From assembly GCA_021793405.1 (NCBI GenBank), contig JAJYSV010000007.1, forward strand, positions 1 to 64,000: a stretch of 64,000 nt of DNA, given 5' to 3'. This DNA is from Acidobacteriota bacterium (lineage in GTDB: Bacteria > Acidobacteriota > Terriglobia > Terriglobales > Acidobacteriaceae). Every line of letters begins with the position of its first letter. Position 1 is the stretch's first letter. Below are positions 23,157-62,275 of this stretch, in pieces. A model generated the notes under the pieces. It was not told the DNA's origin and did not search any database. It saw only the letters and a program-made list of their open reading frames with translations. The position numbers and the translations under genes are program-made.

Positions 23157-23936
23157 ATGCAGAAACAGAGATCGCAATTTGTCATTTTCAGGCCGAGACC
23201 AGCGGCCTCTTTTCGTGTGTTTTGCTTTCCGCACGCCGGCGGCGCTCCGATTGCCTTCTTTCCATGGGCAGAGTGGTTCAGCGAAGACATTGAATGCGTA
23301 TGCCTGCAGTATCGAGGCAGAGCGCAGCGGATCAGAGAAAAGCCTTTAACGTCAATCGGAGAATTTGTTAGCGAGATCAGCGAGGATCTGGCTGCACTGT
23401 CAGACACGCCGTTCGCGTTTTACGGACATAGTTTCGGCGGTATTGTGGCGTTTGAGTTGGCCAGACAACTTCGGCGTTCCGGACGACCAGGACCGTCCCA
23501 CCTATTTGTAGGAGCGACGCGTCCTCCTCACCTGGAGTCACCATTTTCGCCCATCCATGCGCTTGCGAAAGAGGACTTTATCGCAAACGTGCAGTCTCGA
23601 TATGGCGGGATTCCCTCGGTAATTCTTGAAGATGCAGAGGTGATGAAGATGTTTCTGCCTGCAATGCGGGGCGACTTTACAGCTTATGAATCATATAGAT
23701 ATGAGCCTGGACCCCCGCTCGACATTCCGATTACCGCTTTCGGCGGAGCGCAAGACAAGGCTGTGGAACCTGAATGCCTCTACGAATGGGAATTGCATAC
23801 CCAAGCTGTTTTTGCTAGCAACATTCTACCGGGCGACCATTTTTTCTCTCTGACAAGTGGTAAAGAGCTGGTTCGCACAATCGAAGCCCGTTTTGTTGCA
23901 GGTAGGAGTGAACGGAACGCCACCTTCGCGGGTTGA
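23157..23936 (+). CDS. Type II thioesterase (PKS/NRPS editing)
   Basis: A 259-residue alpha/beta hydrolase of the external TEII family that removes aberrant acyl groups from carrier domains. The start region RPRPAASFRVFCFPHAGGAP is characteristic (LFCFPyAGG). The nucleophile elbow is FYGHSFGGIVAFELA with Ser92, the acid is probably the Asp in GGAQDKAV, and the His is His228 in PGDHFF. An upstream in-frame start at 23064 would add 31 unconserved residues. It is the first gene of the operon; PKS1 starts 15 bp downstream. No integrated thioesterase exists in the cluster, so this enzyme may also take part in product release, which is inference. Confidence 0.93.
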   Translation: MQKQRSQFVIFRPRPAASFRVFCFPHAGGAPIAFFPWAEWFSEDIECVCLQYRGRAQRIREKPLTSIGEFVSEISEDLAALSDTPFAFYGHSFGGIVAFELARQLRRSGRPGPSHLFVGATRPPHLESPFSPIHALAKEDFIANVQSRYGGIPSVILEDAEVMKMFLPAMRGDFTAYESYRYEPGPPLDIPITAFGGAQDKAVEPECLYEWELHTQAVFASNILPGDHFFSLTSGKELVRTIEARFVAGRSERNATFAG

Positions 23937-23951
23937 AAGTGCAGAGGGCTG

Positions 23952-26900
23952 ATGAAAAGCGAAAGAACAAGCCAGGAAAGACAAGATCGGCAGTCAACCC
24001 AGAAGACGTTGGACCGCGATCCCATCGCGATTGTCGGGATCGGTTGCCGGTATCCCGGCGCGTCGAATCCTGAGGAGCTTTGGCGGAACCTGCTGGCCGG
24101 CACGGAATCCGTTGGGCCCTACCCGGGAGGGCGTTTTGCCGAGTTGGATCGGCTATATGAACAAGTCCGGAGCAAACACGCTCGGCTGTTTACCGACCGC
24201 GGCGGTTTTCTGCCCGACATTGCTGGCTTCGATTCACAGTTCTTTGAGATTTCCCCGCGGGAGTCGATCTATATCGATCCCCAGCATCGTCTGCTGCTGG
24301 AAGTTGCCTGGGAGGCCCTCGAAGACGCCGGCCAGACTCGGGAAACGTATGAAAATTCAGCCACGGGTGTGTACCTGGGGCTATGGACGAACGAGTACGA
24401 GTCACGATTGTATGAATCCGCCAGCGAAGGAGATTTTTATTCTGTAACTGGGTGCGGCCGTGCTTCGGCGTCAGGGCGGCTGTCGTTCACGTTTGGTTTT
24501 CAAGGGCCAAGCGTGACCATCGACACGGCCTGTTCTTCCTCGCTCGTGGCAGCGCATATGGCCTGTCAAAGCCTATGGGCTGGCGATATCGATATGGCGC
24601 TGGCTGGCGGAGCCAATCTCATCCTGGGCGCGGAGATTTCCGAGTTGTTTACCAAAGCCAACATGCTCTCGCCCGAGGGGAGCTGCAAGTTCGGAGATGA
24701 GTCGGCGAGCGGATTTGTGCGCAGTGAAGGCGCAGGCATTGTAGTTTTGAAAAGGCTGGCGCGCGCCGTTGCGGACAACGATCCCATTTACGCAGTCATT
24801 CGCGGCAGCGCAGTGAACAATGACGGACGTAGCAGTGGACTGCTGGTAACGCCCAGCCGCAGCGCGCAGCAGGAGTTGCTGCGCGCCGCCTGGAAATCCG
24901 CTGGCATCGAGCCGAAAGACATCTCCTACATCGAAATGCATGGCACGGGAACCAGTGTCGGTGATCCTGTCGAAGTTTCAGCGGTTGGCACCGCTTTGGC
25001 GGAGGCAGGCGTCACCGAGCCCTGTGCACTGGGATCCCTCAAGACGAATATCGGCCATACAGAATCTGCCGCCGGTGTAGCCGGACTCGTCAAGGCGGCG
25101 TTGACTCTGAAATATCGCACGATCCCCCCGAGTCTTCACTTCCATGTTCCAAATCCTAAGGTAGCGTGGGACAAGCTTCCTGTGCGGGTTGTAACGGAAA
25201 CAGTGCGGTTGCCGCAGACAACTGACTTGAGCCTGGCAGGGGTTAGCTCTTTTGGTATCACGGGGACGAATGCACACCTGGTTCTTGAAGAAGTGCGCCA
25301 GCCAGAGAATACTTTTCAGGGAAGTGGCCCTTATCTGCTGACGGTTTCGGCCCGCAGTCCGGAGGCCTTGGATTCGCTGTTGCGGGAGCATCTCGATGAG
25401 ATGCGCGCAGCCGGCCCGGAGTATCCCATTCGCGACGTCTGTTATACGGCGAGTGTCCGGCGCACCCACCACGAATGCCGGGCCGCGATCATCGCTGAGA
25501 ATATGACAGAATTCGAGGGGAACCTGGCTGCGGCCATTGCCAGGGAAGACAGCGATGGAGTTGTTTTCGGTCGTGCAAGCTCGACCCAGCAACCAACGGA
25601 GAACACCATCGTATTTGTTGCTCCTGGCCAGGGTTCGCAATGGCTGGGGATGGTCGGTGAACTTTTCGACCGCAATCCGGTATTTCGCCAGGCTTTCGAG
25701 CAATGCAACGCCGCCATCCACGCGGAAACGGGCTGGAGCTTGATTGATCGCGTCATAGGCGAGGATGCGGAGCGATACCTGACACAAATCGATGTGATAC
25801 AATCGGCCCTATTTGCCATGAGCGTTGCTCTTGCCGCCGTGTGGCGATCCTGGGGGATTGTCCCGAGTGCAGTCGTAGGTCACAGCATGGGTGAGGTTGC
25901 GGCAGCCCACATCGCCGGAATTCTTGATTTACAGGATGCTGTTGCCGTGATCTGCCGACGCAGCCAGTTGATGAAGACACTCACCAGCGCAGGCAGCATG
26001 GCGACCGTTGAGCTTCCCATGGCCGATGTCGAACTGCTGCTCGCATCTGTCGATGAGGTTTCCGTGGCAGCCAGCAATGGCCCTCACACCACCGTGATTT
26101 CCGGAGACACAAAGGCGATTGAGTCGATGTTGCGAGATCTAACCGCGAAGGACATCTATTGTCGGCAGATCAAAGTGGACGTGGCGTCGCATAGCGCCCA
26201 GGTCGATCCAATTCTGCCGGACCTTTTGGTCGCGCTATCGGGCGTTCGCCCTCACCCTGCCGAAATCCAGATGCTGTCTACGGTTACCAGCGAGTACGCG
26301 CAGAAAGCGGGCGATTCGCCCGGCGACGCAGGAACCCGCTTGGATGCCGACTACTGGGTCGAGAATCTGCGCCGCAGTGTTCTGTTCGCCCCAGCGATCA
26401 AGCAACTGTGCGCTGACGGCAAGGATGTCTTTATTGAACTTAGCCCGCATCCGATTCTGCTTCCGTCCATTGAATCGTCCGCGCGAGCGATCAATCCCCG
26501 CGCTGTTGCGGTGGCTTCGCTGCGCCGCGAAAAACCGGCTTGCGCAACCATGCTGGCCGGATTGTCGGCGCTGTACGCGGCGGGACGCCAGATCGACTGG
26601 CGGCGGCTCTATCCGGATCAAGCTCGTTGTGTGCGGTTGCCACAGTATCCGTTTCAGCGCGAGCGTTGCTGGCCGGAGCCGGGCGACCCGGCGCGCGGGA
26701 AGTATGCATGGCATACCAGCCAGACCAGTCCACTGCTCGGCCACAGATTTGAATCTTCGCTCGATCCCAATGCAATGCTTTGGGAAACTGATTTGCAACT
26801 CGCAAGCATTCGCTATCTCAACGACCATCGTGTCCTGCGCTCCGCTGTGTTTCCAGCGTCTGGTCATGTCGATATGGCTTTATCCGCTGCCAAGGAGATG

Positions 26901-29900
26901 TTCCCCGACCAGGTTTTTGAGGTCAGGAATGCGGTCTTTGCGAGTGCCGCGTACATTCCCGAGCAGGGAGCGAAAACGTTTCAATTGGCGCTCACTCCGG
27001 ACGGAAATGGTGCATACTCCTTTGCCATTCGAAGTCGGGGGGATCAAGGGGAAGCCGCGTGGCCCGTGCGCTCCCACGGCATCCTCCAGCCAGTTCAATC
27101 TGAGACCGCCCCTCCTGAAACCATCTCTTTGGCCGCTTTACAGGCTCAATATACGACTCACCGGGACGCGCAAGATCACTATGCCAGAACGACCCGATGC
27201 GGGCTGCAATATGGCCCCGCCTTTCAGTTGGTGCAGGAAGCCTGGGTCGGCGACCTCGCGAGTCTATGCAGATTGCGAGCCGACGTGTCGGACGGAGATC
27301 AGGATGTGATCCATCCCGCGATTCTCGACGCTTGTTTCCAGGCCATGACCCATGTGAGGCCAGAGCGGGACGCATTCAAAGCGGAAGACACATATTTACC
27401 GGTTGCGATCGAGAGGGTCTGCATCTACGGTCCAATTCCTGACCACGGTGATCTGTACGCGCAAGCTATGCTTGTGAGCGCCGATCCTCTGAATGGAACG
27501 TTCCGCACGGACTTGCGTTTGCTTGATCCTGTAGGCAACGTGCTGGTGGATGTCACAGGAATCGAAGTCAAGAAGGTCACCGAGCACAACGTGGCCACCA
27601 CCGAGCCGCTCTACGCGCTGCAATGGGTGGAAGAAAAACAGACCGGAACCGCAGGCCAGGCAGCCGAAGCGAGCACCTTGCTGCTACCCAAGGCGTCGGC
27701 TGAAAACTGGATGATCTTCGCCGATAACACTGGAATTGCGGAGGCGATGAAAACGTCGCTCGAATTTATCGGTGGACGCTGCACGCTGATCAGACCTGGT
27801 TCGAAGTTCAGAAGGATTGACGATTCGGAATTTGAGGTAAGTCTGGATGTTCACGATCTGAAGCGGCTGTTCGAGGATGCGGCCATCGGCGCCGGCACGC
27901 CTACCGCCGTGGTTCACCTGTGGTCGCTCGATCATGCTGCGGTCGCAGCCTATAAAGCAGAAGATCTTCTTCAAGCCCAAGCTAGGGGGAGCCAATATAT
28001 CCCCGGAATTGTGCAGGCAATAACGGCCGCGAATTGGGAGAATCCGCCGCGCCTTTGGCTAGTGACGGCAGGCGTGATGATGGTGGATAACAGCACCGAT
28101 TTGCCCCGGATTGAGAGCGCACCAATGTGGGGAATTGGCCGGAGCGTGGACCGGGAACACCCGGAGTTATGCACCACGCTGGTCGACTTGAGCTTGACGC
28201 CAGATCCGCTGGAAGCCCGCGCTTTAGCGCTACAAATTTGCACCAGAGGGCAAAACGATTGGATTGCGCTGCGCGGAAACCTGAAATATGTTGGGCGGCT
28301 CACACGTTATTCCCCGATGGTTCCGGAAGTAAAAGCGGAGCAGCTTGGAGATGGAGAAGACTATCGCATTGAGATTTCGGCAACCGGTATTTTCGACAAC
28401 GTCGAGTTGCGCGCTCGCGAGCATTCTTCGCCGAAGGCGGGTGAAATTGCCGTGGAAGTGGTGGAAGCTGGTCTGAACTTCAGCGACGTGACTAAAGTGA
28501 TGGGTCTCTATCCTGGACTGGTTCCGGGCGATCCCATCCCCCTGGGGAATGAAGGTGTGGGAAGGGTGGTTGCTGTCGGCGAAGGCGTGACGGAGTTCCA
28601 GGTTGGCGATGAGGTCATCGCCATTACTCCATCCATGCGGACAACCGGAATGATGGCATCCACAGTTTCGGTGCCTGTCGAGTTGGCTCTGCATAAACCG
28701 GTTGGGTTGACGGTCGAAGAAGCTGCGACGGTCGCGGTGGTTTATCTGACGGCTTATTGGTCGCTCGTGGAGCAAGCCCGTATCCGCGCGGGAGAGTGGG
28801 TATTGATTCATGCTGGGGCCGGCGGAGTCGGACTGGCCGCCATCGAAATCGCCAAATGGTCGAAGGCGAACATTATCGCCACGGTGGGCTCCAGGGAGAA
28901 GGAAGATTATCTGAGGTCTCTCGGAGTCCAGCACGTGCTCAACTCGAGATCGCTTACCTTTGCCGACGGCGTGATGGAAATTACGGAAGGACGAGGCGTC
29001 GATATCGTTCTGAATTCTCTTGCCGGAGAGTTTCTTTCGAAAGGCCTGGAGGTGCTGGCGCCATACGGACGGTTTATTGAAATGGGCAAGCGGGATATTT
29101 ACGAAGACAAGCCTGTAGGTCTCAAGGTGTTTCGCAACAACATTTCTTTCCATGTGGTCGATGTGGCCGCCGCCGTCGAAGACAGGCGCGCATATGTCGG
29201 GGAGTTGCTGGGCGAAGTGATGCGTCACATTGAAAGCGGCGACTGGCAGCCGTTGCCCGTGCAGTCTTTCTCCGCCGCCGATCCCAGCGTTCCATTCCGC
29301 TTTATGGCGCAGGCGCGCCACATTGGAAAAATTTCCATCCGCATGGATCGGGATGTTCGAGTTCTTCCCGCAAAAGACAAACCGCTGTTTTCCGCGAAGG
29401 CCAGCTATCTCATTACCGGAGGTCTTGGAGGCGTAGCCCTCACGGTGGCGGAGTGGATGGCAGAAAACGGTGCGGGTCATCTGGTCCTGATGTCGCGTCG
29501 TGGTCCGTCCACGGAATCCTCGGAAGCGATCCGAAGGATCGAGGAACGCGGAGCAAAGGTGGTCATGCTCCAAGGCGATATCACGCAGGAATCCGATCTG
29601 ACGAAAGCGCTGGAAACGATTCGAACAAATCTGCCTACACTCAAGGGAGTGATGCATGCCGCCGCGGTGGTGGACGATGCATTGATCGCGGATGTATCCG
29701 CGGGTCGATTTGTACCGGTGATGGCACCAAAAATAATCGGGACGTGGAATTTGCATCGGGCAACGCTCGATGAGAATTTAGATTTCTTCGTCATGTTTTC
29801 TTCCATCGCCGCTGTTCATCCACAACCTGGAATGGGCAGTTATGCGGCAGGAAACGCATTCCTGGATACGTTCGCGCACTACCGGCGAGCCCTGGGCCTG

Positions 29901-30617
29901 CCAGCCACCTCAGTAAACTGGGGCGGCTGGGACCGGATCGGGCTGGCACGAGCAGCTGGAACAGAACGCAGCATTGAAGGATATGAACTGCAGGGAATGA
30001 GGAATTTTTCGGGATCGGAGGCGCTTGCCGCTCTCGGACGCGTGCTCGAAACCAATCCAGTGCAGGTCATTGCCGTTCCATTCGATTGGGAAAAATTTGC
30101 TGCGTTCCACGGACCGAACGGAGCTCCACCGGCTTTCTCCGCCCTGTCGCGCATTTCTGTCGCGACCGAGACCTCCAGTCGCTCAGAGATTTTAGATCAG
30201 CTAATTGAAGCCGATTCGATTCCGCAGCGCCAGGAATTGCTCGAAACCTATTTGCAGGAAGTGTTGGGCCGAGTGTTAAAACTGGCGACGCGAAAGATCG
30301 ATCGGGAGCGTCCTCTGGGAAGCATGGGCCTGGACTCGTTGATGGGGCTGGAATTTGTTCGCCGGCTCAGCAACACACTCCAAATCGCCGTGCCGGCCAC
30401 CGTGGTTTTCAACTACCCGACCATTCAGCAGATGGCTTCTCACCTTCTGCGCAGATTGCAGTTGGCTGCTTCGGAAGATTCGAGCACGCCCGCGGAAAAA
30501 CCTGCCGGCACGCCTGTGCTGAATGGCAAAGACAGCCGGGTAGATGGCCTTTCCGATGGCTTGACGGAACAAGACGCGTTGCACGCCCTGATGGGTAATG
30601 GGCAGAGGAGTTCCTGA
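23952..30617 (+). CDS. Type I PKS module 1: KS-AT-DH-ER-KR-ACP
   Basis: A fully reducing polyketide synthase module of 2,221 residues. KS (about 22-440) has Cys194 in DTACSSS plus HGTGTS and KTNIGH histidines; it is not a KSQ decarboxylase. AT (about 550-890) has Ser645 in GHSMGE and the specificity motif VASH, which leans to methylmalonyl-CoA. DH (about 925-1205) has His959 (HRVLRSAVFP, Arg in place of the usual Gly) and HPAILDACFQ. ER (about 1480-1790) shows LIHAGAGGVGLAA. KR (about 1815-2010) has TGGLGGVA, a Tyr in SYAAGNAF and a VDD motif (B-type). ACP Ser2129 lies in GLDSLM. Its stop overlaps the PKS2 ATG (TGATG). As the first PKS it would accept an unidentified starter. Confidence 0.94.
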   Translation: MKSERTSQERQDRQSTQKTLDRDPIAIVGIGCRYPGASNPEELWRNLLAGTESVGPYPGGRFAELDRLYEQVRSKHARLFTDRGGFLPDIAGFDSQFFEISPRESIYIDPQHRLLLEVAWEALEDAGQTRETYENSATGVYLGLWTNEYESRLYESASEGDFYSVTGCGRASASGRLSFTFGFQGPSVTIDTACSSSLVAAHMACQSLWAGDIDMALAGGANLILGAEISELFTKANMLSPEGSCKFGDESASGFVRSEGAGIVVLKRLARAVADNDPIYAVIRGSAVNNDGRSSGLLVTPSRSAQQELLRAAWKSAGIEPKDISYIEMHGTGTSVGDPVEVSAVGTALAEAGVTEPCALGSLKTNIGHTESAAGVAGLVKAALTLKYRTIPPSLHFHVPNPKVAWDKLPVRVVTETVRLPQTTDLSLAGVSSFGITGTNAHLVLEEVRQPENTFQGSGPYLLTVSARSPEALDSLLREHLDEMRAAGPEYPIRDVCYTASVRRTHHECRAAIIAENMTEFEGNLAAAIAREDSDGVVFGRASSTQQPTENTIVFVAPGQGSQWLGMVGELFDRNPVFRQAFEQCNAAIHAETGWSLIDRVIGEDAERYLTQIDVIQSALFAMSVALAAVWRSWGIVPSAVVGHSMGEVAAAHIAGILDLQDAVAVICRRSQLMKTLTSAGSMATVELPMADVELLLASVDEVSVAASNGPHTTVISGDTKAIESMLRDLTAKDIYCRQIKVDVASHSAQVDPILPDLLVALSGVRPHPAEIQMLSTVTSEYAQKAGDSPGDAGTRLDADYWVENLRRSVLFAPAIKQLCADGKDVFIELSPHPILLPSIESSARAINPRAVAVASLRREKPACATMLAGLSALYAAGRQIDWRRLYPDQARCVRLPQYPFQRERCWPEPGDPARGKYAWHTSQTSPLLGHRFESSLDPNAMLWETDLQLASIRYLNDHRVLRSAVFPASGHVDMALSAAKEMFPDQVFEVRNAVFASAAYIPEQGAKTFQLALTPDGNGAYSFAIRSRGDQGEAAWPVRSHGILQPVQSETAPPETISLAALQAQYTTHRDAQDHYARTTRCGLQYGPAFQLVQEAWVGDLASLCRLRADVSDGDQDVIHPAILDACFQAMTHVRPERDAFKAEDTYLPVAIERVCIYGPIPDHGDLYAQAMLVSADPLNGTFRTDLRLLDPVGNVLVDVTGIEVKKVTEHNVATTEPLYALQWVEEKQTGTAGQAAEASTLLLPKASAENWMIFADNTGIAEAMKTSLEFIGGRCTLIRPGSKFRRIDDSEFEVSLDVHDLKRLFEDAAIGAGTPTAVVHLWSLDHAAVAAYKAEDLLQAQARGSQYIPGIVQAITAANWENPPRLWLVTAGVMMVDNSTDLPRIESAPMWGIGRSVDREHPELCTTLVDLSLTPDPLEARALALQICTRGQNDWIALRGNLKYVGRLTRYSPMVPEVKAEQLGDGEDYRIEISATGIFDNVELRAREHSSPKAGEIAVEVVEAGLNFSDVTKVMGLYPGLVPGDPIPLGNEGVGRVVAVGEGVTEFQVGDEVIAITPSMRTTGMMASTVSVPVELALHKPVGLTVEEAATVAVVYLTAYWSLVEQARIRAGEWVLIHAGAGGVGLAAIEIAKWSKANIIATVGSREKEDYLRSLGVQHVLNSRSLTFADGVMEITEGRGVDIVLNSLAGEFLSKGLEVLAPYGRFIEMGKRDIYEDKPVGLKVFRNNISFHVVDVAAAVEDRRAYVGELLGEVMRHIESGDWQPLPVQSFSAADPSVPFRFMAQARHIGKISIRMDRDVRVLPAKDKPLFSAKASYLITGGLGGVALTVAEWMAENGAGHLVLMSRRGPSTESSEAIRRIEERGAKVVMLQGDITQESDLTKALETIRTNLPTLKGVMHAAAVVDDALIADVSAGRFVPVMAPKIIGTWNLHRATLDENLDFFVMFSSIAAVHPQPGMGSYAAGNAFLDTFAHYRRALGLPATSVNWGGWDRIGLARAAGTERSIEGYELQGMRNFSGSEALAALGRVLETNPVQVIAVPFDWEKFAAFHGPNGAPPAFSALSRISVATETSSRSEILDQLIEADSIPQRQELLETYLQEVLGRVLKLATRKIDRERPLGSMGLDSLMGLEFVRRLSNTLQIAVPATVVFNYPTIQQMASHLLRRLQLAASEDSSTPAEKPAGTPVLNGKDSRVDGLSDGLTEQDALHALMGNGQRSS

Positions 30618-33600
30618 TGCCTGCTTCCGATAAGCCCCGCATCTCCCCGGCAAAGCTCGCGCTCGCTGTTCGGCGGCTGCGAGCTGAGAAGGAAGATCTC
30701 GATCTGATCGCCTCCGACCCGATCGCCGTGGTTGGGATGGGATGCCGCTTTCCGGGTGGAGGCAATTCTCCAGAAGAATTTTGGACAGCTCTCAAGGAAG
30801 GATGCGACGGCGTCAGCGAAGTTCCTGAGGGACGCTGGAAAGACGCTGCCGAGCTTCCGCTCCAACTCCGAAGAGGAGCCTACTTACCAGAGATTGACGG
30901 ATTCGACGCTGCGTTTTTCGGCATTTCACCACGCGAGGCGCAACTGATGGACCCACAGCAGCGATTGCTGCTGGAAGTGACATGGGAAGCGTTATGGGAT
31001 GCTGGGATTGATCCCGCGAGTCTCGCCGGCACGGATGCCGGAGCATTCATCGCCATTTACAACAGCGATTACGCGCGGCTCCATTTCCGCGACACCTCAG
31101 CCCTGACTGCGCACGGAGGGATCGGCAGCGCGCATAGTGTTGCGGCTGGGCGGCTATCATTTTTGCTCAATCTAAAAGGACCGAGTCTGGCCATCGATAG
31201 CGCGTGTTCTTCCTCGCTGGTTGCCACCCATCTCGCCTGCCAAAGCCTGCGCAGCCGGGAGTGTGGTCTTGCCATTGTAGGTGCGAGCAGTCTCAAAACG
31301 CTTTCCGATGAAGTGATCGTATTTTCAAAGTGGGGAATGCTGGCGAGCGACGGAAAGTGCAAGGCATTCGATGCCAGCGCCGACGGTTTTGTGCCGGGAG
31401 AAGGCAGCGGCGTCGTCATTTTGAAGCGGCTTTCGGACGCGCTTCAGGATGGGGACCGCGTCCGCGCCGTGATTCGCGGCACGGCCGTGAACCACGATGG
31501 GAAAACAACCGTGCTGACCGCGCCGAACGGCCTGGCGCAGGAAGCCCTCTTTCGCGCGGCGCTGAGCAATGCCATGCTTGCGCCCGGCGACATCAGCTAC
31601 ATTGAAACGCACGGCACCGGTACCTCGCTTGGCGACCCCATCGAGATCGAGGCCGTCAGCGCAGTGTACGGACAGCCGGGTACGGGAGCGCCACCTTGCA
31701 TACTGGGCGCTGTGAAAACAAACTTGGGCCATCTCGAGGCAGCGGCGGGAATCGCCGGAATCATCAAAACAGTGCTGTGCCTTGAGCACGGAGAAATCCC
31801 GCGAAATTTGCACTTCCACCGGTTGAATCCGGAGATTTCTCTCACTGGTACGCGCCTGAAGATATCAGCGGAAAACACGCCATGGGCCCGCGGCGAAAAA
31901 CCGCGAACCGCCGGTGTCAGCTCGTTCGGTTTGGGGGGCACGAATGGCCATGTAATTTTGGAAGAAGCACCCCTGCTTCCAACACAGAACGCCGCCAGCG
32001 GCCGCACAATTCCGCTGCCAGCCTACGCGTGGAAACGCGAGCGATTCTGGCTGGCTGAAGTTCTCACCGCGAAGCGGATCGATCAAGAGGCCACCCCCGC
32101 ACGTGTTCCCGCCGATGGGCTTGTCCACCCGTTGCTGGGAAAACAAATTGAATCTGTCTTCATTCAGGGTAAGCTTTTTGAATCGGAACTCGACACATTC
32201 GCCGATTCTTACCTGGCGGATCACACCTTGGGGTACCGGCCTATTCTTCCGTTCGCGGCATTTCTGGAAATCGCGGCGGCGGCGCTTCGGCAAATAGACA
32301 AGTCCGGCAGCTCGATCCGCAATCTTGTAGTCCGTGATCCACTCTTTCTATCTTCCGGCGGTTGCCGACTGCAAGTGCTGGTTACCGACGGCTCTATCGA
32401 GATGGCCAGCGTTAGCGGGACCCGCTGGACAACGCACACCAAAGGCTCGGTTCAGCCATCGGACAGGGGAATACCTATCGTCGATCTGGCCGGTCTGCAG
32501 GCAAGCTGCCAGAAAGAAATTTCTGCAAACGATATCTATGACATTTTGGAGCGCACGGGCCTTCGCTATGGAACGGCCTTCCGAACGATTCAGGCGGTGT
32601 GGTCCGGCAAGGGCGAATCACTTGCGCGCCTGCGCTTGTCGGAAGAGGCGGCAAGAGATGCGCAGCAGTACGGACTGCATCCCACGTTGCTCGATGGTTG
32701 TTTGCAGACCGTTATCGCCGCGCGAGAGGAATCGAACGCCGACTTATTTCTGCCCATCAGTGTCGATCATTTCGAGTTGCTTCAGACGGGCAAGACCGAA
32801 GTCTGGGTCCACGTAAAGGTTGTCGCTTCCAGCGCAGAGGCATTTTCCGCCGATATTGTCGTGATGGACGCCTCCGGCAGCGTCGTAGCGCGGCTCGTCG
32901 GTTTTCAAGCAAAGCGCGCGAACGCAGTCACGTTGAACCAGGCACCTTCCAGCGATTCGGCTCCAATGTATGAGTTGGCGTGGCGCCCCGCACCGCTGGC
33001 GGCTGGAGTTAGGTCTTCCCGATCCGGCGAGCACTGGCTGCTGATCGAGTCGCAGGAAGGAAGTTGCAGCCATCTGGTGGATCTGCTGGAGCAACAGGGT
33101 GGCAAGTGCGACGTGCTTGTTCGCGGCGCACAATCTCTTCACTCCATAATCGCCAAGGTTGCATGGTCGGGAATCGTATATGACGCGCGCGGAAGTGAAA
33201 ATCCCGGGGATGCTTCCGAGTGGACTCACCCGGAAAAGAATGACGTAGAGTTTGTTCTGGAGTTTGTAAAGTTTCTGGGAATTCCAAACGACGCAGTCGC
33301 TCCAAGGATTTGGATCGTATCTTCCGCTTCTGCGGCGGTGTTGCCATCGGAGAGTGTATCGATTGCGCAATCGCCTCTGTGGGGATTGGCGCGCACGCTG
33401 ATGCTGGAGCATCCAGAGACTTCGCCGGTTCTGATCGATGTCGGATCGGAGATGGGTACCGTAGGCGCATCGCAAGAGATAGCGGAGATGGTGGCTGCTG
33501 AGATGGCTGCCAATGGTCCAGAAGCGATGGTCGCCTTCCGGCACGGGACCCGTTACATAGCTCGGCTGATCCCGGATCTTCAGCGCCCAGAAGCTGCACA

Positions 33601-35821
33601 AAGGCTAAGAATCGATCCGTCGGGCCGTCTGGAAGACCTACGCATCGAAGCGACAAAACGGAAAGAGCCACAACCGCACGAAGTCGAAATCGAGGTGCGC
33701 GCATCGGGCCTGAATTTCCGCGATGTACTGACGGCGCTGGCCATGTTTCCAGCCCGCACTGCGACGCCAGGCGCTGAGTGTGCCGGCACGATTGTGAGGG
33801 TAGGTTCCGAGGTTCGCGGCTTGCAGGTCGGCGATGCCGTTCTCGCCTTCGCGCCAGCCAGCCTGCAAACCTTCGTCAACCTACCGGCAGATTTCGTGAC
33901 GAGAAAGCCGGCGGCCTTGGCCTTCGCCGAGGCAGCTGGAATTCCAATTGCGTTTTTGACCGCGGAGTATGGCCTGCATCGGTTGGCCAACCTCTTCGCT
34001 GGACAACGTATTCTGATTCATGCCGCCGCCGGTGGATTGGGATTGGCCGCCGTCCAGTTGGCGATGCGTGCGGGTGCAGAAGTATTTGCCACCGCCGGCC
34101 ATCCAGACAAGAGGGCGTTTCTGGCAAAGCTGGGGGTGGAGCATATCTTCGACTCGCGCTCACTCTCATTTCGTGACGAAGTATTGCGGGTGACCGGAGG
34201 AGTGGGTGTCGATGTGGTGCTGAACTCACTTGCCGGGGAGTTTATTCGCGCCAGTCTCGATGTCGTGGCCGAAGGCGGTTGTTTTCTCGAAGTGGGCAAG
34301 CGCGATCTGTGGAGCGCTGAAGAAGTGGCAGCACTTGGAAAGCATATTCGCTATTTTCCATTCGACCTGGGCGAAGTGGCAACGGATGATCCGAAGCTGA
34401 TTGCGAAGATGTTGAGTGAGTTGATGGGGCGTTTCTCAACCGGTGAACTGCAGCCATTGCCAACCACGCTCTATTCCATTGAAGACGCGGCGCAGGCCTT
34501 CCGCACCATGGCTCAGGCCCGCCAGATTGGGAAGATCGTGCTGGGGTTCGATAGCGCAAACCGAGGCCAGACTGTTCGCGACGCAGTATCGGATGGCACC
34601 GTATTGATTACAGGCGGCCTGGGAGCATTAGGCTCGCAGTTGGCACGATGGCTGGCAGGACAAGGAGCCAAGCACATCGTTCTCGCGGGCAGAAGCGCGG
34701 ATGATAGCGGAGAAAACTCGGCTGTCGTAGAGCTGCGCAACCAAGGTGTGGATGTCACGATCGAGCGCGTCGATGTAGCATCATCCTCCCAATTGCAGCG
34801 ACTTCTCGATGATATTCGTGCTGCGCGACCGCCGCTGCGCGCCGTGTTTCATGCCGCCGGCGTCCTGCACGATTCTGTGTTGGGCAAAGAGTCATGGGAC
34901 TCCTACTGCGAAACCACGGCGCCGAAGATTCAAGGAGCGTGGAATCTCGATCGGCTAACTCAGCACGACCCGATCCGGCTTATGGTGTTTTTCTCTTCGG
35001 CGGCATCTGTCCTTGGTTCGCCTGGGCAAGGAAGCTATGCCGCGGGCAACGCATTTCTCGACGCGCTGGCGCATCATCGCTCCAGCCGGGGGCTGGCGAC
35101 GCTCAGCGTGAACTGGGGAGCGTGGGCGTCGTCGGGAATGGCTGCACGCCTGACACCGGAGCAATCCGCCCGATGGACTCGGCAAGGAGTAATCCCTATG
35201 GAGCCTCGCGCTGCATTGGCGGCACTCCAGACGGCTATCGAAGCAGGTCGTTCGCAGGTCGCGGTGATGGATCTGGATTGGGAACAATTTCTCAGCGCCG
35301 GTCCAGCGCGACGAGATGTCGCCTTTTTCTCCGAACTTCAGTCGTTCGAACGCGAGCACAGAGAACAGCACCGGAGTGACCATGTTCAACCGGCTCGCAG
35401 GATCGTCGAGGAGCTGCGCTCCGCTCCAGAATTCGAACGGAAATTTCTTTTGTCTACGCACATAAAAATATGCGCGCGTCGAGTGCTGGGGTTGCGGGAA
35501 TCGGCGCCCATTACGGATAGCGTTGCATTGCAGGATGTTGGATTGGACTCTTTGATGGCCCTCGAAATGCGGAATGATCTCTCGCAGTCTTTGGGCATAA
35601 CGCTGGCAGCGGGTCTGCTATTCGACCATCCGTCCATCGAAGAACTCACCCAGCATTTACTTGGAATTTTGGCGCCATCCATAGAATCTGTCGCCGCAAC
35701 CACAGTGCCGGACGATGCAACCGGCGCAACGATCGAGTTGCAATCCATAAGTGACGCAGAGGCGGAACTGCTCCTGATTCAAGAGCTCGATCGAGCCGGA
35801 AGGGAAAAAGCGAATGCCTGA
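30617..35821 (+). CDS. Type I PKS module 2 lacking AT: KS-DH-ER-KR-ACP
   Basis: A 1,734-residue module. A coiled-coil N-terminal docking helix precedes KS (about 33-450; Cys197 in DSACSSS, HGTGTS, KTNLGH). An AT should follow, but after the KS end (GHVILEEAPLL) only about 15 residues remain before the post-AT linker motif LPAYAWKRERFWL. DH (His536 in DHTLGYRPILP; HPTLLDGCLQ), ER (about 995-1310; HAAAGGLGLAA), KR (about 1325-1510; GGLGALG, SYAAGNAFLD, LHD) and ACP (Ser1645 in GLDSLM) are all intact. The preserved linker shows precise loss of an AT rather than descent from trans-AT PKSs. The carrier must be loaded by another AT. Its 3' end overlaps PKS3 by 8 bp. Confidence 0.94.
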   Translation: MPASDKPRISPAKLALAVRRLRAEKEDLDLIASDPIAVVGMGCRFPGGGNSPEEFWTALKEGCDGVSEVPEGRWKDAAELPLQLRRGAYLPEIDGFDAAFFGISPREAQLMDPQQRLLLEVTWEALWDAGIDPASLAGTDAGAFIAIYNSDYARLHFRDTSALTAHGGIGSAHSVAAGRLSFLLNLKGPSLAIDSACSSSLVATHLACQSLRSRECGLAIVGASSLKTLSDEVIVFSKWGMLASDGKCKAFDASADGFVPGEGSGVVILKRLSDALQDGDRVRAVIRGTAVNHDGKTTVLTAPNGLAQEALFRAALSNAMLAPGDISYIETHGTGTSLGDPIEIEAVSAVYGQPGTGAPPCILGAVKTNLGHLEAAAGIAGIIKTVLCLEHGEIPRNLHFHRLNPEISLTGTRLKISAENTPWARGEKPRTAGVSSFGLGGTNGHVILEEAPLLPTQNAASGRTIPLPAYAWKRERFWLAEVLTAKRIDQEATPARVPADGLVHPLLGKQIESVFIQGKLFESELDTFADSYLADHTLGYRPILPFAAFLEIAAAALRQIDKSGSSIRNLVVRDPLFLSSGGCRLQVLVTDGSIEMASVSGTRWTTHTKGSVQPSDRGIPIVDLAGLQASCQKEISANDIYDILERTGLRYGTAFRTIQAVWSGKGESLARLRLSEEAARDAQQYGLHPTLLDGCLQTVIAAREESNADLFLPISVDHFELLQTGKTEVWVHVKVVASSAEAFSADIVVMDASGSVVARLVGFQAKRANAVTLNQAPSSDSAPMYELAWRPAPLAAGVRSSRSGEHWLLIESQEGSCSHLVDLLEQQGGKCDVLVRGAQSLHSIIAKVAWSGIVYDARGSENPGDASEWTHPEKNDVEFVLEFVKFLGIPNDAVAPRIWIVSSASAAVLPSESVSIAQSPLWGLARTLMLEHPETSPVLIDVGSEMGTVGASQEIAEMVAAEMAANGPEAMVAFRHGTRYIARLIPDLQRPEAAQRLRIDPSGRLEDLRIEATKRKEPQPHEVEIEVRASGLNFRDVLTALAMFPARTATPGAECAGTIVRVGSEVRGLQVGDAVLAFAPASLQTFVNLPADFVTRKPAALAFAEAAGIPIAFLTAEYGLHRLANLFAGQRILIHAAAGGLGLAAVQLAMRAGAEVFATAGHPDKRAFLAKLGVEHIFDSRSLSFRDEVLRVTGGVGVDVVLNSLAGEFIRASLDVVAEGGCFLEVGKRDLWSAEEVAALGKHIRYFPFDLGEVATDDPKLIAKMLSELMGRFSTGELQPLPTTLYSIEDAAQAFRTMAQARQIGKIVLGFDSANRGQTVRDAVSDGTVLITGGLGALGSQLARWLAGQGAKHIVLAGRSADDSGENSAVVELRNQGVDVTIERVDVASSSQLQRLLDDIRAARPPLRAVFHAAGVLHDSVLGKESWDSYCETTAPKIQGAWNLDRLTQHDPIRLMVFFSSAASVLGSPGQGSYAAGNAFLDALAHHRSSRGLATLSVNWGAWASSGMAARLTPEQSARWTRQGVIPMEPRAALAALQTAIEAGRSQVAVMDLDWEQFLSAGPARRDVAFFSELQSFEREHREQHRSDHVQPARRIVEELRSAPEFERKFLLSTHIKICARRVLGLRESAPITDSVALQDVGLDSLMALEMRNDLSQSLGITLAAGLLFDHPSIEELTQHLLGILAPSIESVAATTVPDDATGATIELQSISDAEAELLLIQELDRAGREKANA

Positions 35822-40259: not shown

Positions 40260-40277
40260 TGAAAGTTTGTTCGTACC

Positions 40278-55938: not shown

Positions 55939-55964
55939 TAAAGAAAAACTCAGGTGTCAGTGAT

Positions 55965-58900
55965 ATGAACGAATCTGCGGCAAAGCATCACAGGAAGGGA
56001 ATTGCAATCGTCGGTGTTGCTGGACGGTTTCCCGGCGCACCCACTGTGAAGGATTTCTGGAAAAATCTGACCGAGGGCGTAGAGTCAATTCATTTTGCTT
56101 CCGATGCGGAATTGACCGCTGCTGGAATCGATCCTGGCTTGATCGCCCGTCCAGACTACGTGTGGGCCAGCGGCACGATTCATGAGCCAGACTATTTCGA
56201 TGCATCCTTTTTCGGCTTCAGCGGGCGCGAAGCCGAGATCATCGACCCACAACAAAGAGTATTTCTCGAGTGTGCCTGGGAGGCGCTCGAAGATGCCGGT
56301 TGCGACCCTAGCTCGTACCCGGGTACCATTGGCGTCTTTGCCGGCGCGGGAATGAATTCCTACGGTGTTGTCAACCTTCTCTCCAATCCAGAGGTGATCG
56401 AGTCTGTCGGCGGCTATCAAGTGATGGTCGGCAACGATAAGGATTTTCTCTGCAGCCGGGTGGCGTACAAGCTGAACTTACGAGGTCCGGCAATCGGAGT
56501 GCAAACAGCGTGTTCCACCTCGCTGGTAGCTGTGCAGATGGCGTTTGAAAGCTTGCTTCGACACGAATGCGATATGGCCCTTGCCGGGGGCGTTTCTATT
56601 CCCATTCCGCAGAGCCCCGGGTATCTCTATGTTCCGGGCATGATTCTGTCGCGGGATGGTCATTGTCGCGCCTTCGATGCCGCGGCTACCGGTATCGTGC
56701 CGGGGGGCGGAGCTGGCATCGCCGTATTGAAGCGTCTCGACGATGCGATCGCGGACCGGGATCATATCTACGCTGTGATTCGAGGAGCGGCAGTGAACAA
56801 TGACGGCTCGGCAAAGGTCGGCTACTCGGCGCCGAGTGTCGAGGGTCAAAGCGCCGTCATTCGAAAGTCGATGGAGATGGCTGGATTTGCTCCCGAGTCC
56901 ATCGGCTACATCGAAGCCCATGGTACGGGCACAGAGGTAGGCGACCCAATAGAAATTGCGGCTTTGTCGAAGGTATTCGAATCCTCTGAAATAAAGCCGC
57001 ACTCCTGTGTGCTGGGATCGGTGAAGACGAACATTGGTCATCTGGACACGGCTGCGGGCATTGCTGGCCTCATCAAGACTGCACTGTGCGTCGAACGCCG
57101 CACGATCCCGGCGACGCTCCATTTTACACACCCGAATCCACTCATCGATTTTAAGAGAATGCCTTTCACCGTAAGCGCATCGCTGGCTACCTATGACAAG
57201 CCGGGACCGTTTCGTGCCGGAGTCAGTTCCTTTGGTATCGGAGGCACAAATGCACACGTTTCCATGGAAGAAGCCCCCCTCGTTCACTCCGACCCTTTGA
57301 GCGCATCGCAATTGATGGTTCTTTCGGCCAAAACGAGCGGCGCCCTCGATGCGCGGTCCGCTCAACTGCTGCGTTATCTCGAGGAAAATCCGTCAGCAAA
57401 TCTCGCCGACATCGCGTTCACGCTGCAGAAAGGACGTCAGGCTTTCCAACATCGTCGCGTGCTGGTGGCGCGGGATGTGGCAGCGCTTAAAACAATGCTG
57501 GAAGCGCCCCATTCACCATCGCGAAAATCCCAATCGTTGAGAACCGAGAATGCGCCCACGGAGCCCGCAGGAGTCGTTTTCCTTTTTCCCGGCCAGGGTG
57601 CTCAGTACGTGAACATGGGACTTGATCTGTATCGCACGACGCCTGTCTTTCGCGACACCGTGGACCGTTGCTGCGAAATCTTGAAACCCCAACTGGATGT
57701 CGACCTGAGAAGTGTTCTTTTCCCCCCCTCAGGCAAGGAACAAGAGGTCGAGGGTCTGCTGAACCAAACGGCCATCACGCAGCCAGCGCTGTTTGTCGTC
57801 GAATATGCGATGGCAATGCTTTTCCTGGAATGTGGCATCCGGCCCGCAGCGATGATAGGGCATAGCGTCGGAGAATATGTCGCGGCATGTCTTGCCGGAG
57901 TATTTTCGCTCGAAGACGCCCTCGCATTGATTTCCACACGGGGAAGAATGATCCAGGCGCTGCCCGGCGGAGCCATGCTGGCGGTCAGTCTTTCCGAATC
58001 GGATCTTCTACCCTTACTCTCGTCCGAAACCTCCATCGCGGCCGTAAACGCGCCAATCCAAACAGTCGCATCCGGGACGGGAACGGCTATCGCAACTCTG
58101 GAGACCAGACTCCGAGGTAAGAAAATTGAATGCAGGCGCTTGCATACTTCCCATGCCTTTCATTCACCTATGATGGACGAAATCCTGGAAGAGTTCGTTC
58201 GCCGTGTTGCCAAGGTCCAGTTGAATCCGCCTACGGTTCCTTATCTGTCGAACGTTACCGGCACGTGGATTACGGAGAGCCAAGCCACCGACCCGGAATA
58301 CTGGGGATCGCATATTCGAAAGACGGTCCAGTTCTCCGATTGCATTCAGAAAGTGATGAGGGAATCCAGCCCAATTCTGTTGGAGGTGGGGCCGGGCGAG
58401 ACGCTCCTATCGCTGACACGTCAACATCTGGAGCCGCGCAGCACGCGGCCCCTCATTCCTTCCATGCGGCCTCGTCAAGCGGCGCAAGATGACCGCGAGA
58501 CTTGGCTGACTGCTATCGGACGGCTCTGGCTTTTGAATATGCGGCCAAACTGGGATGCACTGCACGCAGGCGAACGGCGTGTCCGCCTGTCGCTACCCAC
58601 CTACCCATTCGAACGCCAGCGATACTGGGTAGAGCCGAAAAAAGCGACGGCAGTTACTACAACCGCAATGCCGCTCAAGCAGGCGGACATCGCGGATTGG
58701 TTCTATGTTCCATCGTGGACTCGCACCTCACCCGAACTTCTGAAGAAATCGCAAACCGATTCGACTCAGACATGGCTGCTTCTAGCGGAGGAGGGGAGCT
58801 TTCCCAACGCTCTCGCATCCGAACTCGGCTCACATGGTCAGACAATCCGAGTACGAAGCGGAGAGAAATTTCTGCGGGTCTCTTCCGCGCTCTATGAGAT

Positions 58901-60578
58901 CGATCCCGCCAGACAAGAAGACTATCTCACGTTGCTCGACGATCTGCGAGCGAGCGAACATTGGCCGGATCGAATCGTCCACGCGTGGATGCCGGATGCA
59001 ACCGTCGAAGGAGCCCTGCAAACCGCATTGGATCGTAGCGTGTTGAGCGCCATGTTTCTGGTTCAGGCCGCTCAGGAGCAAAGTTCCAGCAGGAGAATCG
59101 AGTTCAGTGTCCTCTCCGACCGCGCATACAGCGTGTTCGGCGAGCGTGTTTCTTCTCCAATCGCCGCCGCGCTGAATGCGTTTTGCGGCGTCATTCCGAT
59201 CGAATGCCCGAATGTCACCTCCAGAGTCATCGATGTCGATCTAGTATCCAACTCCGCATCCGCGATCCAACAGCTTATCCGAGAACTCGTGTCTCCGCCG
59301 TCCAGCGATATCGTTGCCTATCGCGGATCATCGCGATGGGTACAACATTTTGAACCGGTCCGAATTGAGAAGCCACTTCCAGACCAAAAGAACGACCGGA
59401 GCATTTCGCTGAGAGCCGGAGGCACCTACGTAATCACCGGAGGGTTGGGCGGCGTCGGGCTCGTTCTCGCCCAGCATCTGGCTCGAACTGCACAGGCGCG
59501 CCTCGTCCTTACTGCTCGCACGCCTTTACCAGCCGCCTCGGAGTGGAAAACACTCCTTGAAGCGCCGGAAACACCGGATGATCTCAAAAGGAAAATTCAA
59601 GGTGTCCAGTCGATAGAGGATCTCGGCGGGAAGCCAATCGTAGTCGCGGCGGATACCGTTGACGTGGCAGCGATGCGACAGCTTCTTGCCACGGTAGCTG
59701 CCGAATATGGTCCGATTCGCGGCATCATCCATGCTGCCGGTATAGCCGGAGCTGGCATGATCCAAACAAAATCGCGAGAAGAAGCGCTCGCCGTTCTTTC
59801 ACCTAAGGTGCAGGGAACGGAATGGATTCGCGAATGCCTGGCAGTAGCGGAGCTTGATTTCGTCCTGCTCTGTTCCTCCATCAGCGCCCTGATTCCATCG
59901 ATCGGACTGTCCGACTATGCTGCGGCAAATGCTTATCTCGACGGCTTCGCGGCCGTCTATGACGACACTCGCGGCACACGGATTTTATCCGTGAATTGGG
60001 ATACGTGGCGTGATGTCGGCATGGCTGTACACATGCAATTGCCCGCCGCGCTGGCCCACCTTCGAGAAGACAATCTGAAGCATGCCATTGGCTCTGCAGA
60101 AGCGGCCGATGTATTCGATCGCGTGCTCTTTTCTCCCGTGTCACAGGTACTTGTTTCGACACGCGACTTCAACGCCCTGCAACGACTGACAGCGCAGGCC
60201 ATCGCGGATCTTCAAGAGGGAATGAACTCTGCACGCCCGCACCCAGCCATGAGTGTCCATGCCCGGCCAGATTCACTGGATGATTTTGTTCCGGCTGGGG
60301 ATGAGATTGAACAGTTCATCGTGACTACGTGGCAAGAGCTTCTTGGAGTCGAACCGATCGGTATTCATGACGATTTTTTCAAACTCGGCGGCCACTCGCT
60401 GTTAGGAACACAAGTTCTGGCTCGAATGCGCGAGCGTTTTAAAATCGATATATCACTGCGTATTATCTTTGAAGCTGCTACGCCAGCAGAGTTGGCGCAG
60501 CATGTTCGATTAATGTCGTGGGCTTCGAGTTCGACATCCCCCACCTCGGCTCTGGAGCGCGAGGAGATCGAAATCTGA
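55965..60578 (+). CDS. Type I PKS module 6: KS-AT-KR-ACP
   Basis: A 1,537-residue PKS that would extend a peptidyl (glycyl) thioester. Unlike PKS2-5 it has almost no N-terminal docking helix. KS (about 12-440) has Cys183 in QTACSTS, HGTGTE and KTNIGH; such KSs are usual after NRPS modules. AT (about 525-820) has Ser634 in GHSVGEY and SHAFHS (malonyl). KR (about 1150-1345) has TGGLGGVG and Tyr1318 in SDYAAANAYLD. The LDD motif is absent, suggesting an A-type product. The carrier domain reads LGGHSLLGTQ with Ser1478 and looks more like a PCP than a PKS ACP, fitting the downstream C domain. It predicts a 4-amino-3-hydroxybutyrate-like unit if glycine precedes. Confidence 0.93.
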   Translation: MNESAAKHHRKGIAIVGVAGRFPGAPTVKDFWKNLTEGVESIHFASDAELTAAGIDPGLIARPDYVWASGTIHEPDYFDASFFGFSGREAEIIDPQQRVFLECAWEALEDAGCDPSSYPGTIGVFAGAGMNSYGVVNLLSNPEVIESVGGYQVMVGNDKDFLCSRVAYKLNLRGPAIGVQTACSTSLVAVQMAFESLLRHECDMALAGGVSIPIPQSPGYLYVPGMILSRDGHCRAFDAAATGIVPGGGAGIAVLKRLDDAIADRDHIYAVIRGAAVNNDGSAKVGYSAPSVEGQSAVIRKSMEMAGFAPESIGYIEAHGTGTEVGDPIEIAALSKVFESSEIKPHSCVLGSVKTNIGHLDTAAGIAGLIKTALCVERRTIPATLHFTHPNPLIDFKRMPFTVSASLATYDKPGPFRAGVSSFGIGGTNAHVSMEEAPLVHSDPLSASQLMVLSAKTSGALDARSAQLLRYLEENPSANLADIAFTLQKGRQAFQHRRVLVARDVAALKTMLEAPHSPSRKSQSLRTENAPTEPAGVVFLFPGQGAQYVNMGLDLYRTTPVFRDTVDRCCEILKPQLDVDLRSVLFPPSGKEQEVEGLLNQTAITQPALFVVEYAMAMLFLECGIRPAAMIGHSVGEYVAACLAGVFSLEDALALISTRGRMIQALPGGAMLAVSLSESDLLPLLSSETSIAAVNAPIQTVASGTGTAIATLETRLRGKKIECRRLHTSHAFHSPMMDEILEEFVRRVAKVQLNPPTVPYLSNVTGTWITESQATDPEYWGSHIRKTVQFSDCIQKVMRESSPILLEVGPGETLLSLTRQHLEPRSTRPLIPSMRPRQAAQDDRETWLTAIGRLWLLNMRPNWDALHAGERRVRLSLPTYPFERQRYWVEPKKATAVTTTAMPLKQADIADWFYVPSWTRTSPELLKKSQTDSTQTWLLLAEEGSFPNALASELGSHGQTIRVRSGEKFLRVSSALYEIDPARQEDYLTLLDDLRASEHWPDRIVHAWMPDATVEGALQTALDRSVLSAMFLVQAAQEQSSSRRIEFSVLSDRAYSVFGERVSSPIAAALNAFCGVIPIECPNVTSRVIDVDLVSNSASAIQQLIRELVSPPSSDIVAYRGSSRWVQHFEPVRIEKPLPDQKNDRSISLRAGGTYVITGGLGGVGLVLAQHLARTAQARLVLTARTPLPAASEWKTLLEAPETPDDLKRKIQGVQSIEDLGGKPIVVAADTVDVAAMRQLLATVAAEYGPIRGIIHAAGIAGAGMIQTKSREEALAVLSPKVQGTEWIRECLAVAELDFVLLCSSISALIPSIGLSDYAAANAYLDGFAAVYDDTRGTRILSVNWDTWRDVGMAVHMQLPAALAHLREDNLKHAIGSAEAADVFDRVLFSPVSQVLVSTRDFNALQRLTAQAIADLQEGMNSARPHPAMSVHARPDSLDDFVPAGDEIEQFIVTTWQELLGVEPIGIHDDFFKLGGHSLLGTQVLARMRERFKIDISLRIIFEAATPAELAQHVRLMSWASSSTSPTSALEREEIEI

Positions 60579-60637
60579 GCGGGTCACTTTCGGCCAGGGC
60601 CGGATCGTTCGGTGTTGCCTGGGACCTATATAAGCGT

Positions 60638-62275
60638 ATGCAGGAACTTACGACGGGCCAATTTATTAGCCTCCTTCGACAGCGGAACATCGACGTCCGC
60701 GCCGAGGACGGGCGGCTACACATCAGCGCACCGGCTGGTGCGGTGGATTCGCAGCTTCGCAGAGAACTCGCGCGCCGCAAGGGCGATCTCCTGTCGACTC
60801 TACAGAATGCCGGCGCCGTTCGCCCGCAAAGCCCGTTGGTCCCGGCAGGACGGGCTGGAAAAATTCCCCAGACAGGTGCCCAGCAAGGGCTGTGGCTCAT
60901 CGATCACTTCGATCCCGGCTGCGTTGCATACAACATTCCCATCGCCTATTTGGTGGAGGGGCCAGTGGATTTGGCGGCTCTCCAGATGGCCGCCGACCAG
61001 ATGCTTGTCCGCCATGAAATACTGCGCACCTCCTTCTATGAGGAAGATGGCGATCTTTTTCAGGCTGTTGCCCCCGAGGCCGGTACCATGGTGGAGTTCA
61101 CGGATCTTTCGAGTCTTGCCGAAACCAATCGAGACCAGGAACTCGATACGTTGATCCGTGAACAGGCGCGACGGCCATTCGATCTGCATCAACCGCCGCT
61201 GGTTCGGTTTCACCTGTTCCGTCTGACGGAGCAGCGGCACGTGGTATTTTTCAACATTCATCACATTATCGCTGACCGCAAATCATTGACGATTTTGTGG
61301 GAGGAACTCAGAATCCTGTATCAGGCGGCAATGCGAAATGAGACCGCCAACCTTCCCAAGCTTCCCATTCAGTATGCCGATTATGCCATGTGGGCGGCCC
61401 AACATCTGGCCGATGGTCGAATGCAGGAGCAAATCCTGTATTGGAAAACAAAGCTTGCTGGGTTGCCTGCCTATCTGGACCTTCCCACCAACCGCCCATA
61501 TCCGGAAAAACGGACGCCGTGGGGCGCAACCACTCCTGTCGTGATAGATGTATCGTTGCGAGATGCAATGATGGAAATTGCCCAGCAAGAGGGCGCCACG
61601 ATGTTCATGACGCTGCTAGCTGCCTTTGCCGTTCTGCTGTACAAGCAATCGGGGAAAGAAGACTTTTGTATCGGCTCCCCCAGCACGCTGCGCAAGCACG
61701 TGGAAACAGAGTCTATCATCGGGTTGTTCGTGAACATGCTTGTGTTCCGTTGTGACCTGGGCGGCGAGCCCAGTTTCCGGGATGTTCTACGACGCGTACG
61801 TAGCACCGCCCTGGAAGCCTATGAGAACAGCGATGTGCCTTTTCAGGAAATAGTCCGGGCCTTGAAACCCGACCTTAGATCGTTACGGTCCCCGTTTTTT
61901 CAAGCGATGTTTGGCTTTGACTCTGAGGATGGAAAAGGAACCAGCGGTTTGATACAACTCGACACAAAACCAGGTACAGCAAGATTCGATCTAACATTGC
62001 AACTAACCGAGCATGCTGACGGGATTTCCGGTTCCTTTGAATATTGCACCGATTTGTTTGACGCGCTGGACATGGCGGAGCTCAGCGGACGACTCGTTGC
62101 TTTACTCCGAGAAATCAGCGCGTATCCAGACCGTTCGGTCTCCAAATTAGAAATTCCTGCTACGAGCCGAGGAGAGGGAACTGTGGCGGATGCTCAGATG
62201 GAGAACTCGAACTTCTGGAGGCGAGCGACCAAACACGCCACGGAACGATTCGCGCATCGCTTCCAAAGGAATTGA
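60638..62275 (+). CDS. Terminal NRPS fragment: TubC-type docking-condensation domain
   Basis: A 545-residue protein. Residues 1-57 (MQELTTGQFISLLRQRNIDV onward) are a second TubC-type docking domain. The rest is one condensation domain with the catalytic motif HHIIADR (His208, His209, Asp213), in which the usual Gly after Asp is Arg214. No adenylation, carrier or thioesterase domain follows; the C-terminal 35 residues (from GEGTVADAQMENSNFW) match nothing. In the +1 frame from 62157 the DNA reads LLRAEERELWRMLRW, close to the normal C-A linker, so the gene seems to have lost its A-PCP part by a frameshift and deletion. It may still act as a releasing C domain using a free amine or alcohol. 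Confidence 0.9.
   Translation: MQELTTGQFISLLRQRNIDVRAEDGRLHISAPAGAVDSQLRRELARRKGDLLSTLQNAGAVRPQSPLVPAGRAGKIPQTGAQQGLWLIDHFDPGCVAYNIPIAYLVEGPVDLAALQMAADQMLVRHEILRTSFYEEDGDLFQAVAPEAGTMVEFTDLSSLAETNRDQELDTLIREQARRPFDLHQPPLVRFHLFRLTEQRHVVFFNIHHIIADRKSLTILWEELRILYQAAMRNETANLPKLPIQYADYAMWAAQHLADGRMQEQILYWKTKLAGLPAYLDLPTNRPYPEKRTPWGATTPVVIDVSLRDAMMEIAQQEGATMFMTLLAAFAVLLYKQSGKEDFCIGSPSTLRKHVETESIIGLFVNMLVFRCDLGGEPSFRDVLRRVRSTALEAYENSDVPFQEIVRALKPDLRSLRSPFFQAMFGFDSEDGKGTSGLIQLDTKPGTARFDLTLQLTEHADGISGSFEYCTDLFDALDMAELSGRLVALLREISAYPDRSVSKLEIPATSRGEGTVADAQMENSNFWRRATKHATERFAHRFQRN

Follow-up and report, generated by a model that had tools for sequence, protein, structure and literature searches.

The window, i.e., the whole stretch of DNA that was analyzed, comprises bases 1-64000 of a 120-kb contig from a soil acidobacterium. 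The genome (4.6 Mb, 137 contigs, completeness rated 100%; G000 below) has Acidobacteria metagenome-assembled genomes (MAGs) as its closest relatives by record name. Positions 23157 to 62275 (39 kb) hold nine genes in series on the plus strand, mostly overlapping or separated by gaps of 15-26 bases, with a maximum spacing of about 60 bases ahead of the likely start of the last gene. All nine frames are open; the accumulated stops that the original prediction had named as a case against itself were not seen. Position 23157 is the ATG of a thioesterase (TE) gene, the same start as in that prediction, and every domain named there was seen again by Pfam. The genes and the features within them are as follows (M1 to M8 denote modules; module domain content is according to Pfam).

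23157-23936, plus strand: discrete thioesterase, type II-like, GHSFGG (PF00975, E 4e-42)
23952-30617, plus strand: M1, KS-AT-DH-ER-KR-ACP, no loading module
30617-35821, plus strand: M2, KS-DH-ER-KR-ACP, no AT
31979-32084, plus strand: M2 junction, lacking the AT and one half of the linker between KS and AT; post-AT linker kept
35814-40259, plus strand: M3, KS-AT-cMT-ACP, no KR
37509-38369, plus strand: AT3, tract attributed to gene conversion, 99.07% identical to AT4; GHSLGE/HAFH, malonyl type
40278-46907, plus strand: M4, KS-AT-DH-ER-KR-ACP
41943-42803, plus strand: AT4, tract attributed to gene conversion, partner of AT3
46904-52537, plus strand: M5, KS-psiAT-cMT-KR-ACP
48605-49435, plus strand: inactivated M5 AT, GYGTGE at 48896, in frame despite a deletion of about 90 residues
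52534-55938, plus strand: M6, TubC docking-C-A-PCP
55965-60578, plus strand: M7, KS-AT-KR-T with a PCP-like T; AT at 57576-58502, GHSVGE/HAFH
60638-62275, plus strand: M8, TubC docking and a stand-alone terminal C, HHIIADRKS at 61259

The M6 open reading frame was listed from 52471, and the ATG at 52534 overlaps the M5 stop; that of M8 was listed from 60518, with a likely ATG at 60638. Multimodular KS/AT/ACP proteins with built-in ATs are combined here with a C-A-PCP module, as in cis-AT hybrids. An intact AT is present in four of the six KS modules, M2 having none and M5 an inactive one. Read by eye in the translations, the active-site residues are in place, i.e., the KS Cys and His, the DH His and Asp, and the KR Ser, Tyr, and Asn.

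The best solved relative of M1 is mycocerosic acid synthase (MAS), with which it shares the domain order and the methylmalonyl-type AT motif; the difference is that M1 passes its chain into a modular line. AT1 (25611-26564) carries GHSMGE/VASH, as does the M1 AT of every relative in which it was read, and methylmalonyl-CoA mutase genes are present in the window genome. Approximately 280 amino acids lie between DH and ER in both M1 and M4, which is room for a structural KR part (PF21394 match in M1); because the stretch fits such a part, M1 is read as having no methyltransferase. The methyl branch considered possible at M1 by the original prediction could thus be supplied by the methylmalonyl-type AT, but not by a C-methyltransferase.

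Orthologous lines were found in two congeners (G006 and G008; 60-72% at the amino acid level) and in two genomes of another genus (G025 and G119). The thioesterase orthologs (60% in G008, 50% in G025) lie immediately upstream of M1 in each case. It should be noted that the relatives are draft MAGs, and that contigs break in M3/M4 in G006, G008, and G025. Upstream of the cluster, the window contains an aquaporin-family (major intrinsic protein) gene at 21828-22721; aquaporin-family genes also occur downstream of the cluster in G025 (L024:16774-17514) and, by a resemblance judged by eye, probably in G119 (L068:2252-2992). Identity between the copies in the window and in G025 is only 29%, and they lie on opposite sides, so that a conserved cluster neighbor was rejected and the co-occurrence is probably a coincidence.

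Missing and inactivated acyltransferases

In M2, the C-terminal extension of the KS is shortened and the post-AT linker PLPAYAWKRERFW comes straight after it, with no AT. The M5 remnant matches the first ~115 positions, about a third, of the AT profile, and has GYGTGE in place of the active-site GHSxGE. The AT deficiency originally predicted for two modules thus stands, and because orthologous lines with the same oddities occur in four other genomes, chance is excluded. M2 is AT-less over its full length in orthologs at 70% (G008) and 51-52% (G025), whereas the state of the M5 AT is graded: the lesion is common to the congeners G006 and G008, where it reads GYGLGE, the AT is wholly absent in G025, from another genus of the family, and it is intact in the M5-like module of the divergent G067 line. 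Deeper lines (G068, G236, G203) open with the same TE and MAS-like methylmalonyl module 1, and the next module is again AT-less, i.e., KS-ACP in G068 and KS-KR-ACP in G236 and G203; the third module of G203 is KS-DH without AT (modules 2 and 3 of G203 were read from the translation).

Among solved structures, taken as best relatives rather than as a full KS tree, KS2 and KS5 best match cis-AT KSs, with CurL and DEBS scoring above single-KS trans-AT chains, PksJ, and other AT-less KSs; on the same basis neither belongs with the trans-AT clade KSs. M2 and M5 are therefore likely to be cis-AT modules that lost their AT. An import of KS2 and KS5 from a trans-AT system was considered, as the top match was 7zma, and rejected: the 7zma chain appears to hold two KSs with a summed score, and single-KS chains of its series score below CurL. 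The dN/dS ratio is 0.08 for KS5, 0.17-0.25 for the terminal C domain (C8), and 0.21-0.43 for the dead M5 AT; the KS5 and C8 values indicate that the line is maintained.

AT3 and AT4, both of malonyl type (HAFH), differ at 8 positions in 861 bp, with a longest identical run of 654 bp and sharp edges, and the KSs adjoining them are only ~65% identical. On these sequence patterns, the near-identity, which was absent from the original prediction, is a product of recent gene conversion. A 4.5-kb contig of G006 (C261, L042) closes on itself through a 131-bp end overlap and joins ACP3-KS4-AT-cMT3; its KS part is 77% identical to KS4 and 56% to KS3, and its AT 83%. A duplicated KS-AT-cMT module in G006 was rejected as the reading of this contig, the closure being explained by near-identical AT3 and AT4. 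Because the contig fits such a pair, AT3 and AT4 appear to be near-identical in G006 as well, and homogenization appears to recur within lineages.

An identical repeat of 654 bp is beyond short-read bridging, which, together with the psiAT in M5 and the lost A-T-TE, could suggest that the cluster is an assembly artefact or is decaying. However, independent assemblies share the architecture, and one copy per flank means that the repeat permits only the order KS3-AT-cMT-ACP-KS4-AT-DH, a linkage that the closed G006 contig has as well; the nine open frames and the KS5 ratio argue against decay. We consider either explanation highly improbable, and the line real and probably working.

Proposed malonyl supply to M2 and M5

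The ATs of the window genome are AT1, AT3, AT4, AT7, the M5 remnant, two in other PKS lines (C96 and C128), and one discrete. The latter is a 323-aa FabD-type enzyme beside PF02504 (PlsX-type) and YceD genes; no dedicated discrete trans-AT was found in the cluster or in the genome. Since the only discrete AT is of FabD type, the loading of M2 and M5 must come from neighboring ATs or from FabD. From the gene order we infer AT sharing within the line: the M2 and M5 ACPs would take malonyl in trans, most likely from AT3, which adjoins M2, and from AT4, which adjoins M5, or else from FabD. Of the two other PKS lines, one (L028, G000:C128, 8487-18712) reads A-PCP, then KS-AT-aminotransferase-C-A-T, then a C...T-TE gene, and has related genes in G006, G008, G025, and G119; the other (L030, G000:C96, 4697-13026) reads A-PCP, then KS-AT-KR-DH-ACP-TE.

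Loading of both AT-less modules by the FabD of fatty acid synthesis, with no sharing inside the line, is a possibility that we take seriously while leaning against it. The discrete FabD-type AT exists, and a malonyl transacylase rescues the AT-null module 6 of DEBS in trans (PMC6164871). The AT-less KS-ACP module of G068 also fits this explanation, as only the methylmalonyl-type AT1 and a distant AT7 were seen in that line. Conversely, in the window both AT-less modules are adjoined by malonyl modules that bear an AT, and aureothin, in which the AT of one module also loads the neighboring module of a cis-AT line, is an earlier case of intra-line sharing (PMC9899208). The proximity of AT3 and AT4 to M2 and M5 is compatible with FabD loading too, their conversion can have occurred without any AT sharing, and FabD would give the same product.

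The loading predicted here resembles that of aureothin in that the AT of one module would serve its neighbor; aureothin sharing takes place within one polypeptide, whereas here each AT-less module is a protein of its own, there are two of them per line, and they are found again in relatives. The DEBS AT6null module is similar, being a cis-AT module with a dead AT to which a FabD-type enzyme supplies malonyl in trans, but it is engineered, whereas the present case is natural and conserved. Trans-AT PKSs likewise have AT-less modules with the post-AT linker kept, but here the KSs are of cis-AT type, in a genome without a dedicated discrete AT. A broader proposal, which we regard as unlikely, is that this acidobacterial line family shifted from cis-AT to neighbor-AT operation, with ATs excised, a few homogenized malonyl ATs serving several ACPs across proteins, and the last extension module cut to a releasing C domain.

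The terminal C domain and its proposed role in chain release

M8 consists of TubC docking and one C domain, and is followed by ~220 bp without a gene. A tRNA-Arg(CCT) at 62494-62570 comes next, a possible integration site; a genomic island at this tRNA was set aside on the basis of G+C content, which is not distinctive. The C domain is fused to M7 in G006 and G008, and is a separate gene in G025 and G119; in G006 a DDE transposase gene immediately follows the M7-C gene (L023:8239-9072). In the window genome and these four relatives it is the last NRPS domain, and no A, T, or TE was found after it in the available sequence, which extends to only 0.9 kb in G008.

Of ~800 family and phylum genomes sampled, nine contained the terminal C. 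The orthologous C of G068 and G236 sits in a full C-A-T module, which in G068 also has a TE, and in G067 and G203 the C gene is separate, beside an A-T-TE gene without a working C. In the C tree, all nine split from the M6 C domains (100/100); the stand-alone and terminal Cs, including those of G067 and G203, group together (100/99), with the C of the G068 and G236 C-A-T modules as their sister. Thus, the terminal C most likely descends from the C of an extension module, the A-T-TE having been lost here. The A-T-TE genes at L161:6726-10241 (minus strand) and G067:C1:1764593-1767190, beside a stand-alone C gene, have a TE nucleophile motif with Cys for Ser (GWCLWG/GWCLWA), and the C of the L161 gene lacks the N-terminal half carrying HHxxxDG. 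At L067:12530-15554, a type 2A encapsulin (SrpI-like) gene and then a class-V aminotransferase/cysteine-desulfurase-type gene adjoin a stand-alone C gene.

By its sequence, the terminal C is a candidate release domain: it stands at the line end with a catalytic HHxxxD, the H, H, and D of which are invariant. The cyclizing CT domains of fungi carry SHxxxDxxS, and the stand-alone clade does not, reading HHI[IV][AS]D[RA][KR]. The change from HHxxxDG to DR was rejected as a mark of release domains, as the full C-A-T module of G236 and split modules have the same G-to-R change. A structure model of M8 (pLDDT 60, pTM 0.47, 7 sequences) was too poor for use. We propose that the chain would leave T7 via the M8 C, the nucleophile most likely being either water or a free small amine; a nine-membered macrolactone formed via the M5 hydroxyl is less likely.

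Two other roles for M8 were considered. It could be half of a split module: an A-T(-TE) protein encoded at another locus would present an aminoacyl group, M8 would condense the M7 product with it, and that protein would then release the chain. The same-clade C genes of G067 and G203 have an A-T-TE neighbor, and homologous A-T regions occur in the window genome's remaining NRPS clusters; however, the A-T units seen in C96 and C128 are parts of the lines encoded there, none of the five genomes has a free A-T-TE at the locus, and the fusion to M7 in G006 and G008 also argues against this role, which we judge unlikely. Alternatively, M8 could be a relic of structural value only, with hydrolysis of the chain from T7 left to the discrete thioesterase upstream, as would suit a line end without a TE domain and the conservation of that thioesterase directly upstream of M1. 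This is a doubtful reading, to which we give little weight: the invariant HHxxxD and the dN/dS of 0.17-0.25 in C8 speak for a maintained function, the C became fused to M7 in G006 and G008, and a discrete TE in such a position usually has an editing role.

For release by the M8 C, which we prefer, glidonin offers a parallel, as the C of its last module (C13) releases the chain onto putrescine (PMC10587159). The likeness, predicted for M8 from sequence, lies in the C of a final module acting as the releaser; the difference is that A*-T-TE follows C13, whereas a PKS module precedes the M8 C, with no further domain behind it. For the crocacin synthetase, hydrolytic chain release by a C-like domain is reported (Chem Biol 2014, 21:855), and M8 is likened to it by this description only, i.e., a C-like domain at the release step.

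Predicted product and significance

The colinear reading in the original prediction was a reasonable one. In our version, M1 would take an acyl starter, add a methylmalonyl unit, and reduce it fully; M2, loaded in trans, would add a fully reduced malonyl unit; M3 a C-methylated unit with its beta-ketone left; M4 a reduced unit; M5 a C-methylated, hydroxyl-bearing unit, again after loading in trans; M6 probably glycine; and M7 a malonyl-derived beta-hydroxy unit. The M6 A code, DILQCGMIW(K), appears glycine-like by eye; it was compared with the reference A code DILQLGLIWK. The predicted chain is R-CH2-CH(CH3)-CH2-CH2-CO-CH(CH3)-CH2-CH2-CH(OH)-CH(CH3)-CO-NH-CH2-CH(OH)-CH2-CO-X, i.e., a lipopeptide-like (lipid-peptide) molecule.

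Taken as a whole, we give an even chance to a maintained orphan, mainly cis-AT PKS-NRPS line, in which M2 and M5 are loaded in trans with malonyl and release proceeds via the M8 C. The orphan hybrid with two AT-deficient modules and a C-domain end that was originally described is borne out, with conservation and purifying selection added. The suggestion that it represents a new pathway type does not hold, because AT sharing and C-domain release each have precedents, i.e., aureothin (PMC9899208) and the DEBS rescue (PMC6164871) for the former, and glidonin (PMC10587159) and, as reported, crocacin for the latter. Literature searches gave no acidobacterial match.

The source group has few characterized metabolites. 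Arguments on how cis-AT and trans-AT systems interconvert, and on how a PKS-NRPS line loses or changes its release step, usually start from end states. In this case, intermediates of both kinds occur within a single bacterial family: an M5 AT that is intact (G067), inactivated (the window genus), or absent (G025), and a last module in the form of C-A-T(-TE) (G068, G236), a C split from A-T-TE (G067, G203), or a C alone (the window genus, G025, G119). With these natural intermediate states, both AT sharing and C-domain release could be tested by exchanging natural parts.
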